Assembly: GCF_014595945.1 (NCBI RefSeq)
Contig: NZ_JABXWU010000001.1
Location: forward strand, 496,001-560,000
Reading direction: 5' to 3'
Length of the DNA: 64,000 nucleotides
Source of the DNA: Alkalibacillus aidingensis
Lineage (GTDB): Bacteria; Bacillota; Bacilli; Bacillales; Alkalibacillaceae
The notes beneath the pieces were generated by a model, which worked only from the letters and a program-made list of their open reading frames with translations, was not told where the DNA came from and ran no database searches. Shown here one piece after another: positions 34,677-44,661 of this stretch. The position numbers and the translations under genes are program-made. Position 1 is the stretch's first letter, and the number at the start of each line of letters is the position of its first letter.

Positions 34677-34982
34677 TATTGCACAAAAGCAATATGATGT
34701 TCATTAACTTTTTGTTGTTGGTCAGTGTTTCTCAATGACGTTTTGCGCTTCAAACGGTGGTGAAACGTCATCGAAAGAGCGTCTCACTTACGTTTTGCGC
34801 TTCAAACGGTGGTGAAACGTCATCGAAAGGGCGCCTCGCTTACGTTTTGCGCTTCAACCAGTGGTGAAATGTCATCGAGAGAGCGTCTCGCTTACGTTTT
34901 GGACTTCACACGAGGTCAAAACGTCATTGAGAGACCAAGAACGTCTGAGTGTTAATGAACATTCTCCATCTTTTGTGCAATA
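34677..34982. repeat. Intergenic element A: nested inverted repeats enclosing four 52-bp hairpin units
   Basis: Fills most of the gap between ypfD and der. Outer arms: TATTGCACAAAAG (34677-34689) pairs perfectly with 34970-34982; ATGTTCATTAAC (34697-34708) with 34951-34962; TCTCAATGACGTTTTG (34730-34745) with 34917-34932. Inside, units begin with ACGTTTTG at 34738, 34790, 34842 and 34894, an exact 52-base period. Each unit carries an internal pair such as ACGTTT/AAACGT. The end motif recurs in elements B and C. No open frame is convincing. A short hairpin (34621-34635, GTGGC/GCCAC) lies between it and der. Family not recognised. Confidence 0.85.
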
Positions 34983-41725: not shown

Positions 41726-42712
41726 TCACCGACCATTTCGTTTTTGTAGAATGTCTTTTGCAATTAGCTCGCCGTGGTAACGACCGTTTTCTATAAAGAT
41801 CTCATTATTATTATAACCTGCGGCTATGACTCCTGCTATATAAATATCATCCACATTAGTCTCCATAGTTTGCTCATTAAAGTGTGGTCTTCCCGTCTCA
41901 TTATCAATGTCGATTCCTAAGTCAGTTAAGAAACCTTGGTCAGGATGGTAACCGATCATCGCGAAGACAAAGTCTGCTTCAACACTTCTTAATTCACCGT
42001 CAACCTGATAATGAACACGATCTTCTGTAATTTCCCTAATGTCTGCATTGAACTCCATGTCGACTTTCTCATGGCGTATGAGGGAATCGAATAAAGGTAA
42101 AATCCATGGTTTTACACTTGGTGAATAATCCTTACCACGGTATAAAACAGTAACATGGGCCCCTGCTTTCTCAAGCTCAAGTGTAGCATCAACTGCTGAA
42201 TTTTTCCCTCCAATTACAACGACCTTTTGATTATAATAAGGGTGAGCTTCTTTGAAATAATGGTAAACATGGGGTAGTGATTCACCTTTCACATTAAGTT
42301 TGTTTGGGTGATCATAATAGCCAGTAGCAATTATAAGATAAGGTGCTTGATATTCTTTTTTCTGACCGTTTTTAACTTCGGATTGAATGATATAGCCACT
42401 ATCAACTTTATGAACCTTTTCAACTTTTTCATAAGTATTTATTCGCAAATTCTCTCTTTGTGCAACAGTACGATAATAAGTTAGCGCTTCATTTCTCACC
42501 GGTTTTTGTCTTTCTGAAATAAACGGTATATGACCAACTTCTAATTTCTCGCTTGTACTAAAAAACGTTTGATGAGTTGGATAATGATATATAGAGTTCG
42601 CAACATTCCCCTTCTCAATTAATAATGGATCTACTCCTTGCCTTTTAAGTTCAAGGGCGGCTGATAACCCACAAGGACCAGCTCCTATGATGATGACTTC
42701 TTCCGTTTGCAT
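41726..42712 (-). CDS. ypdA: Bacillithiol disulfide reductase YpdA
   Basis: About 328 residues. FAD motif IIGAGPCGLSAALE at the N-terminus, NADPH-binding VVIGGKNSAVDATLE in the middle, and the C-terminal YIAGVIAAGYNNNEIFIENGR segment with GRYHGELIA. No CxxC redox pair of thioredoxin reductase type. Known family members recycle oxidised bacillithiol (BSSB). ATG at 42712 follows AGGGGTG; an in-frame GTG at 42721 lies inside that site. Next to gudB as in B. subtilis, but separated by element B. Confidence 0.92.
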   Translation of the reverse strand: MQTEEVIIIGAGPCGLSAALELKRQGVDPLLIEKGNVANSIYHYPTHQTFFSTSEKLEVGHIPFISERQKPVRNEALTYYRTVAQRENLRINTYEKVEKVHKVDSGYIIQSEVKNGQKKEYQAPYLIIATGYYDHPNKLNVKGESLPHVYHYFKEAHPYYNQKVVVIGGKNSAVDATLELEKAGAHVTVLYRGKDYSPSVKPWILPLFDSLIRHEKVDMEFNADIREITEDRVHYQVDGELRSVEADFVFAMIGYHPDQGFLTDLGIDIDNETGRPHFNEQTMETNVDDIYIAGVIAAGYNNNEIFIENGRYHGELIAKDILQKRNGR

Positions 42713-42900
42713 CTCTAACACCCCTAATATTTAATGTAATTAATGGTTTTCATATCATTTATTGCTTTTTATATTTAATCTAAGTTAAATGACATATGTA
42801 TTTAGTGAATACTAACACCTTAAGTCCAATAGTCTAGAATTGTTAATAGCCTTCTCGTTCTTCTATAAGAGTAGTTCAGTTATTATAACGCACTTGATCG

Positions 42901-43286
42901 GTAATGTTTATTGACTTGGCTGTGATCGGGTTTGATGACATGATGAGCAATTAGGTGCGGTAAAAACGTTTGATAGTAGGAGTCTCAATGACGTTTTGAC
43001 TTCCTTTGAAGCGCAAAATGTCCGAGAGACGTGGTCTCAAGACCGTTTTAGCCCCGTTTCAAGCGTGAAATGTCCGAGAGAATCGGTCTAATTAACGTTC
43101 CACCACCTTGTAAAGCCATCACCGTCAATTAGACGCAATCTAATTAACGTTCCACCACCTCGGGTAACTATTACCGTTAATTAGAAGCAGTCTCATGAAC
43201 GATACGTCTTCTTGTGAAGCTCAGAACGTCAATTAGAAACTAGCCGACTAACCTGTAAAGTAATGAACTTCATATCACTCATGTGA
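42901..43286. repeat. Intergenic element B: about six diverged 52-bp hairpin units, element A family
   Basis: Lies in the 670-base gap between gudB and ypdA, outside the gudB terminator. Unit starts at 42938, 42991, 43042, 43095, 43147 and 43199 keep a 51-53-base spacing although sequences differ. The fifth unit has an 11-bp perfect stem TCTAATTAACG/CGTTAATTAGA; the second pairs GTCTC...TTTTG with CAAAA...GAGAC. The right end (43260-43276, reverse strand) carries the family end motif; the left end shares ATGAGCAATTAGGTG (42943-42957) with element C (51493-51507, reverse strand). Nothing else is seen in 42713-42900. Confidence 0.8.
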
Positions 43287-43386: not shown

Positions 43387-44661
43387 TTAAATCCAACCTC
43401 TAAATCTGGCCGCTTCTGTCATCTTACGAACACCGACCATATAAGCTGCCAGACGCATATCAATCTGACGGTTTTGTGCGGTTGTATATACATTATTGAA
43501 AGACTTAACAAGTACCTCACGTAGTTTTTCTTGTACCTCTTCTTCCTTCCAATAATACCCCTGATTATTTTGTACCCATTCAAAGTAGGATACCGTAACG
43601 CCACCAGCTGACGCTAACACATCTGGGACAATCAGTATATCACGTTCAGTTAAGATTTTTGTTGCTTCTAACGTAGTAGGACCATTTGCTGCTTCCACAA
43701 CAATTTCTGCTTTGATATTGTGTGCATTATCTTTGGTAATTTGGTTTTCAATAGCAGCCGGAACCAAAATGTCCGTTTCTAATTCCAACATTTCTTCATT
43801 AGTAATCGTATCATCAAATAAATTAGTGACTGTGCCAAAACTATCGCGACGATCGAGGAGATATTCGATATCTAGCCCTTCAGGATCATATAACGCCCCC
43901 TCGGCATCTGAGATCGCGATCACTTTTGCACCCATATCATGCATAAATTTAGCTAGGAAACTTCCTGCATTACCGAAGCCCTGAACAATTACACGAGCCC
44001 CTTTAAGATCAATTCCTCGTTTCTTACATGCTTCTTCAATACAAATTGTAACACCTTTTGCTGTAGCAGACTCCCTACCATGTGAACCACCAAGAACAAT
44101 TGGTTTACCAGTAATAAAACCTGGGCTGTTGAACTCGTCAATTCGACTGTATTCGTCCATCATCCAAGCCATAATTTGTGAATTAGTAAATACGTCTGGT
44201 GCAGGAATATCTTTAGTTGGACCGACAACTTGTGACAATGCGCGAACATATCCACGGCTGACACCTTCTAGCTCACGAAAAGACATCTCTCGTGGGTCAC
44301 ATACAATACCACCTTTACCTCCACCATATGGTAAATCAACAATACCAGACTTAAGCGTCATCCAGATTGACAACGCACGTACTTCTGTTTCACTGACATT
44401 AGGGTGAAAGCGCACCCCACCTTTTGTTGGTCCAACAGCATCATTATGCTGAGCACGATAACCGGTAAAAACTTTAACTTTACCATCGTCCATTCGAACT
44501 GGAATTCTAACAGTCACCATTCGAACAGGTTCTTTCATCAGCTCATACGCTTCTTCTGGATAACCTAACTTATCCAAAGCCTCACGGATCACTGACTGTG
44601 TTGATGATAAAATATCGTTTGGTTGTTCATTTTGAGAATCTGCTGGCTTTTCGGCTACCAT
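43387..44661 (-). CDS. gudB: NAD-specific glutamate dehydrogenase
   Basis: 424 residues. Substrate lysine in PTKGGVRFHPN, catalytic GGGKGGIVCDP, PAPDVFTNSQIMAWMMDEY and the Rossmann VIVQGFGNAGSF segment are intact. Catabolic deamination of glutamate. I see no in-frame duplication of the kind that inactivates gudB in B. subtilis 168, so the enzyme should be active. AGGAGG precedes the ATG; promoter at 44719-44746. gudB and rocG cannot be told apart by sequence alone; the symbol is by position beside ypdA. Confidence 0.92.
   Translation of the reverse strand: MVAEKPADSQNEQPNDILSSTQSVIREALDKLGYPEEAYELMKEPVRMVTVRIPVRMDDGKVKVFTGYRAQHNDAVGPTKGGVRFHPNVSETEVRALSIWMTLKSGIVDLPYGGGKGGIVCDPREMSFRELEGVSRGYVRALSQVVGPTKDIPAPDVFTNSQIMAWMMDEYSRIDEFNSPGFITGKPIVLGGSHGRESATAKGVTICIEEACKKRGIDLKGARVIVQGFGNAGSFLAKFMHDMGAKVIAISDAEGALYDPEGLDIEYLLDRRDSFGTVTNLFDDTITNEEMLELETDILVPAAIENQITKDNAHNIKAEIVVEAANGPTTLEATKILTERDILIVPDVLASAGGVTVSYFEWVQNNQGYYWKEEEVQEKLREVLVKSFNNVYTTAQNRQIDMRLAAYMVGVRKMTEAARFRGWI

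Follow-up and report, generated by a model that had tools for sequence, protein, structure and literature searches.

Tandem 52-nt arrays between genes of Alkalibacillus aidingensis keep unit length and sequence frame rather than base pairing

Does a tandem repeat whose arms can fold into a perfect hairpin owe its form to selection for that hairpin? The question is raised by a short array, array B, in the 64-kb stretch of Alkalibacillus aidingensis DNA analysed here (the window). An initial annotation held that both arms of its units change together, took this as the signature of selection for pairing, and proposed an undescribed structured RNA or a hairpin-dependent mobile element. We found the observation to be true but selected, and the array to be a member of a published 52-nt class. 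Within this genome, unit length and a sequence frame are kept, and base pairing is not.

Two arrays and their family in the genome

Array B (42983..43237, + strand) consists of five 47-nt units that start at 42983, 43035, 43087, 43139 and 43191, with a 5-nt linker after each, giving a period of 52. One period ahead of the first unit lies a degenerate leader unit (42931..42977, +), which was assigned by eye; a similar stretch of the form ..ATGAGCAATT.GGTG.. stands upstream of many other arrays. The array occupies the gap between two minus-strand genes, at 43387-44661 and 41726-42721, which we take from the look of their sequences to encode glutamate dehydrogenase and a reductase-like protein, respectively. 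Array A (34730..34932, - strand) has four units of the same period (starts 34730, 34782, 34834 and 34886), is oriented opposite to array B, and lies between two further genes on one common strand.

The hairpin that raised the question is real. In the array B unit at 43139, the left arm TCTAATTAACG (43139..43149, +) and the right arm CGTTAATTAGA (43175..43185, +) form 11 of 11 pairs, and the unit at 43087-43133 forms 10 of 11, with one A-C. These are the units that had been described as the fifth, perfectly paired, and the fourth, nearly so; that numbering seems to take the degenerate leader as unit one.

Used as a BLASTN query, array B found 59 places in the 2.84-Mb genome, and a unit model gave at least 147 matches among the best 150 candidates scored, so the repeat family greatly exceeds what chance would give. 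The fetched loci hold 187 units of 47 nt in 37 arrays, with arrays known only from fragments (L091) excluded; units were read as ungapped windows, so that every unit-based count either misses those bearing indels or reads them in a shifted frame. Spacing between units was 52 in 143 of 150 cases and 51 in five (the two others were 103 and 84), and this constancy was kept although neighbouring units differ at a mean of 7.7 of 47 bases. Near-identical tandem neighbours also occur within arrays. Four or more repeats, the describers' search threshold for the class (PMC8161180), were present in 25 of the 37 arrays, including arrays A and B with four and five, and fewer in 12. In 400 kb of contig C12, Tandem Repeats Finder identified 15 arrays with a period of 51-53, 12 of them absent from our set; therefore, 37 is a lower bound for the genome.

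The arrays are noncoding: none of the 37 lies inside an ORF above 97 codons, and three overlap ORFs of 75-97 codons. ORFs of at least 70 codons flank 35 of them on both sides, and these genes are codirectional in 24 instances, convergent in 9 and divergent in 2. Among the codirectional cases the array ran with the genes in 9 and against them in 15, which is no significant preference. The array of the window is one of many intergenic arrays of a constant-length 52-nt class of Bacillales. Several repeat words coexist in this one genome. In a partial sample of arrays, type I words were common on contig C1, whereas TCTATCGGACA, CTCTTTGACC and arrays of direct words predominated on contig C12; the choice of word may thus vary between regions of the chromosome.

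Pairing and covariation of the arms

We counted Watson-Crick pairs in the outer 11-nt arms of every unit. Array B gave 7, 6, 10, 11 and 8, and array A 8, 7, 7 and 9. The mean over the 187 units was 7.5, and the unit at 43139 was the only one to be fully paired; an uninterrupted 11-bp run anywhere on the unit axis was found in three. The claim that most units pair TCTCAATGACG with CGTCATTGAGA was therefore overstated. Moreover, a right arm pairs with the left arm of the next unit (7.45 pairs, n=150 neighbours) about as well as with its own (7.51). The same holds for the 31 neighbours with left arms that differ by at least three bases (6.39 pairs with the next unit and 6.52 within it), and for arms of 16 nt (10.29 and 10.45). 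Arms drawn from different arrays form 6.72 pairs at 11 nt and 9.25 at 16 nt.

Covariation was assessed against a tree null, in which independent columns were simulated along a FastTree tree of 173 distinct units in 400 replicates; this home-made analogue of R-scape covers 47 columns and ignores recombination between units. One of 16 stem pairs fell below 0.05 (7-41, p=0.0175), which is not significant for 16 tests; the next were 4-44 (p=0.057) and 6-42 (p=0.072), with the remainder larger. After correction there was thus no covariation above phylogenetic expectation in this simulation. Along the unit tree, 4 double changes kept a pair as opposed to 391 one-sided changes. Those that left a Watson-Crick pair went to G-T in 57 instances, to A-C in 65 and to other mismatches in 92. 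The G-T pair pointed out in the second unit does exist (positions 11-37), but the family has no bias toward G-U wobble. APC-corrected mutual information with array weighting singled out only 4-44 and 7-41, and the mean of the true stem diagonal was not above that of shifted diagonals. Selection for pairing, as first proposed, is not borne out by these results.

Some excess pairing was nonetheless observed. Five stem pairs (1-47, 2-46, 11-37, 12-36 and 15-33) were paired more often than simulated (p 0.005-0.02), which we read as arm sequence conservation. The 16-bp stem formed in 73.2% of cells as compared with 67.7% after partner shuffling. The covariation score and the number of cells changed on both sides exceeded all 500 shuffles, an excess that relatedness alone can cause; the pairs changed on both sides (59/500) and the pair types (133/500) were not in excess.

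RNAalifold returned no consensus structure for 64 distinct units on either the forward or the reverse strand; the 15 type II units alone gave a reverse-strand stem of -8.3 kcal/mol with no covariation part. Folded as RNA, array consensuses were more stable on the reverse strand in 26 of 37 cases and on the forward strand in 10, and z was below -2 for 23 of the 37 reverse and 16 of the 37 forward consensuses; as the arrays are related to each other, these counts are not independent.

In the unit set, 15 of 37 arrays were mirror-symmetric. Such symmetry was found in three of 14 arrays of period 51-53 from contig C12 and the window, among them array B and not array A, and the other 11 were not significantly symmetric. 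Among 30 arrays of period 40-42 from this species and two congeners, 26 were built of direct 20-21-bp words and none was mirror-symmetric. Constant length is therefore general among these arrays, and pairing is not.

A published class and a frame shared by part of it

The class to which array B belongs is already in print, so the family is not undescribed as had been suggested. Reportedly, it was founded in a 2020 J Bacteriol paper. Subirana and Messeguer described tandem repeats of Bacillus that have a constant length (52 or 20-21 nt) and a variable sequence; they call the class, which occurs in many relatives of Bacillus, enigmatic and its function unknown, consider nucleoid proteins or small RNAs, and note that 20-21 bp is about two turns of B-DNA (PMC8161180). 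Our arrays have in common with their 52-nt class a period of 51-53, mostly 4-10 units, many arrays per genome, species-specific words, a sister class of 20-21 nt, and short signals that often occur with their reverse within one unit. One of the array units that we recovered, in genome G230, is the B. coagulans family 1_52_139 of that report. Of 27 published consensuses, 18 were mirror-symmetric about some axis, with a 5-nt centre among the best axes in 8 of the 18; AGA-N5-TCT was present in four, as compared with 0.22 in shuffles, and 23 were without it. The main text of PMC8161180 contains no words beginning 'terminal', 'transpos' or 'intergenic'. Six repeat words sought as text strings in the literature gave matches in three papers, which are unrelated by title.

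How far does the family extend? The unit model gave matches in one of six genomes of the genus and one of 22 of the family, among the best 150 of about 750-1170 candidates per genome. Across the order it matched one of 397 genomes, a weak test given its stricter filters and best 15 candidates, under which only 19 matches of its own genome were recovered. Sites A and B were without an array in all five congeners. A restriction of the family to this species holds only in a narrower sense: the model (R1) was null in 21 relatives, yet word-agnostic searches show the class elsewhere. Congener G003 had 24 arrays in 400 kb, 23 of them of period 20-21 or a multiple, as were all 16 arrays in 200 kb of congener G002; congener G005 had none in 360 kb (L135-L152), and 200 kb of G017, from another genus, held six arrays of mixed periods. 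The samples of G003 (L095-L114) and G002 (L153-L162) correspond to 60-80 arrays per Mb, mostly of the 20-21-bp words TTTATCAGCGCTC, CTATTCGGTAATAA and GTCCGACATTAA. In congener G001 the site of element A is occupied by a repeat that is unrelated and strongly palindromic (L086:1150-1540), so this intergenic gap has received repeats in two lineages. There was no match of array B or of a G003 array to plasmids, or of array A to phages. An exact-core scan gave no match in viral contigs, and its two single matches among named genomes, in unrelated MAGs, were read as chance.

We then searched the order with a pattern that is independent of the words, TCT-N5-ACG-N25-YGT-N5-AGA-N5-TCT-N5-ACG, allowing one mismatch. 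The frame TCT-N5-ACG..YGT-N5-AGA at 52 bp was found in 21 of 397 genomes and 15 of 136 genera; the backwards control had one match in all. Matches numbered 184 in this genome, 59 in G006 and 17 in G112. Arrays with a period of 51-52 were present at all 20 fetched places, from 14 genomes; a further six of the 21 genomes have single matches, outside these places, which may be chance. As the frame was the search pattern, its constancy among the hits is so by construction. The frame is common to only part of the 52-nt class and is not universal.

These arrays allowed the arms to be compared between lineages. The input comprised 19 arrays of the 20 loci (L186 was dropped by the frame filter) and our own 37, and one array per genus was drawn for each of ten genera. 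Arms of the same array matched at 112 of 160 positions, a value reached in 1 of 4000 draws, as opposed to 90 between arrays. The variable core behaved likewise (32/50 vs 22, p=0.0065), and the loop control gave nothing (16.6 vs 18.8 of 70). Single positions were weak, with only position 4 below 0.05 (p=0.036). In the arms of 22 array consensuses, 193 of 242 pairs were Watson-Crick, 7 G-T, 9 A-C and 33 others. It is therefore true between lineages that both arms change together, as the initial annotation had it; the part of that claim that fails is within the genome, where pairing inside a unit does not exceed pairing with its neighbour. Whereas the describers state that the class has no sequence conservation across species, and give no arm geometry (PMC8161180), the present arrays add a frame in part of the class and a co-change of the arms between lineages. 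Arrays also stood at matching places, with flanks similar by eye, in two species of one genus, in L192 (G133) and L198 (G392) and again in L188 (G188) and L190 (G339). Arrays may thus be inherited vertically while their units change.

Half-sites, hairpins, satellites and mobile elements

Since the arrays do not conserve pairing, we consider an RNA hairpin unlikely; sites on DNA that are read by a protein fit better. We tentatively favour the reading that the arms are inverted half-sites within the 52-nt Bacillales class, and that the arrays are candidate binding platforms for a DNA protein; we regard this as a serious possibility, short of probable. A DNA protein would read the half-sites. A length of 52 bp is about five turns of B-DNA, and a fixed unit of this size would present all units on one face of the helix. 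One reader's recognition would govern both arms, and for this reason they may drift together between lineages and not as strict complements. The near-identical neighbours suggest that entire units are duplicated in tandem as arrays grow, and some arrays of this species, bounded by terminal inverted repeats, may ride inside a mobile element. Our analyses found no binding protein for the arrays. The centres of the half-sites are 31 and 21 bp apart with 16-nt arms and 36 and 16 bp apart with 11-nt arms; an argument from the first pair of spacings, as whole helical turns in support of phasing, was dropped since it depends on the arm length chosen. A partly common frame and a mirrored layout of half-sites make the class a testable binding-site problem, in that a bait sequence can be made. 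A broader proposal, which we think rather unlikely, is that Bacillales have in common a single, rapidly evolving system for reading DNA: a family of proteins, possibly nucleoid ones, would read inverted 52-bp half-sites or direct 20-21-bp words, with a TCT-N5-ACR frame fixed in one branch and a 5-base core coevolving with the reader in each lineage, and the mirrored arms would be the footprint of this coevolution.

The chief rival to the half-site reading is template switching, which could copy the arms onto each other without selection. In this account the arrays are a neutral satellite with no function, which arose by slippage and spread by recombination, its arms matched by replication switching templates between imperfect inverted repeats, a documented route to matched arms (PMC8794818). 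The near-identical units inside arrays and the species-specific words agree with it. That ten genera share a fixed period of 51-52 is not readily explained by neutral drift, and the units do not change evenly: on the unit tree, columns 3, 13, 35, 38, 39, 41 and 45 changed 2-5 times, as compared with 11-37 times for the loop columns 17-31, although other arm columns changed up to 32 times. We consider this account possible but not likely. That each unit is instead a hairpin of a transcript, with its arms kept complementary, is improbable, even though palindromic units do fold, the reverse strand is the more stable RNA in most array consensuses, type II units have their reverse-strand stem, the arms co-vary between genera, and satellites of B. 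coagulans with 52-nt repeats are reported as transcribed on the evidence of published reads (PMC8625621). The counts of pairs, the covariation tests, RNAalifold and the symmetry tests led us to reject an RNA hairpin as the general explanation; in addition, the arrays showed no significant orientation relative to genes, and nothing in the 64-kb window matched Rfam at the gathering threshold. As the pairing tests failed, the published RNA proposal carries less weight.

What also remains of the initial proposal of a structured RNA or a hairpin-dependent mobile element, whose RNA part the covariation tests do not support, is that terminal inverted repeats enclose a subset of the arrays, as expected of a mobile element. 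Element A has GATGTTCATTAAC at 34696..34708 (+) and AATGTTCATTAAC at 34951..34963 (-), together with a 13-nt outward extension, TATTGCACAAAAG, at 34677..34689 (+) that is matched on the other side at 34970..34982 (-). Around array B the repeats are degenerate, with three mismatches to GATGTTCATTAAC on the left (42903..42915, +) and three mismatches on the right (43259..43271, -). Of 34 loci, 15 have inverted ends like GATGTTCATTAAC on both sides with at most three mismatches, and 21 have such an end on either side with at most two (L023, L036, L037, L090 and L092 were excluded from this count); the stretch between array and right end varies in length (15 cases: 5, then 15-23). Such elements would consist of a left end, the leader, a number of tandem modules as cargo, and a right end. 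The layout is that of BOX of Streptococcus pneumoniae (boxA, tandem boxB, boxC), which is likewise modular and combines inverted ends with tandem modules whose number varies (PMC3049150), but the likeness is by analogy, in layout and not from a comparison of sequences, and only part of the present arrays have ends. The empty sites A and B of the five congeners would agree with mobility, as would similar ends around other cargo, seen by eye: in L042:830-1275 and L043:795-1090, what lies between ends resembling those of element A is a different, large palindromic sequence (..AGACTCCTG..GAGGCTTCAGCC..) and not a 52-bp array. Against this, no consistent target-site duplication was seen by eye, one element (L030) having an 11-bp direct repeat; no autonomous copy was noticed in the part of 55 end matches (control 36) that was inspected; and 20 arrays of other genera had no terminal repeats beyond those of shuffled pairs (mean score 7.95 vs 7.74). 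The end word was not above control in five congeners. A mobile element may therefore explain the spread of one subfamily and not the class, and as an explanation of the arrays at large we hold it to be very doubtful. An origin as the REP or BIME system of a RAYT transposase is scarcely credible, and was rejected. The genome does encode one RAYT-like Y1 transposase (L089:1471-2046, at about 210.6 kb of G000:C12; NF047646, 79.8 bits, cut-off 80), and it is the only one of six genomes of the genus to do so. REP, BIME and REPIN repeats are imperfect palindromes that lie between genes in many copies per genome, and the present arrays resemble them in this; the RAYT-like gene, by contrast, is flanked by a repeat of its own, GTGCCTGTCACTTCC, which is unlike the array units, the unit model found nothing in its locus, and PF01797 had no match in congeners G002 and G003, although both carry word arrays.

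The flanking repeat of this transposase occurred at 17 places in this genome, with up to one mismatch, and at none in five congeners. In REP systems, a GTAG or CGTC tag is reported beside the palindrome (PMC3733652). At one locus (L133:9748-10130), two word arrays, CACGGATTGG and TTGTTGATTG, with a spacing of about 21 bp, are enclosed by two inverted copies of the RAYT repeat, as though carried in a REPIN-like unit.
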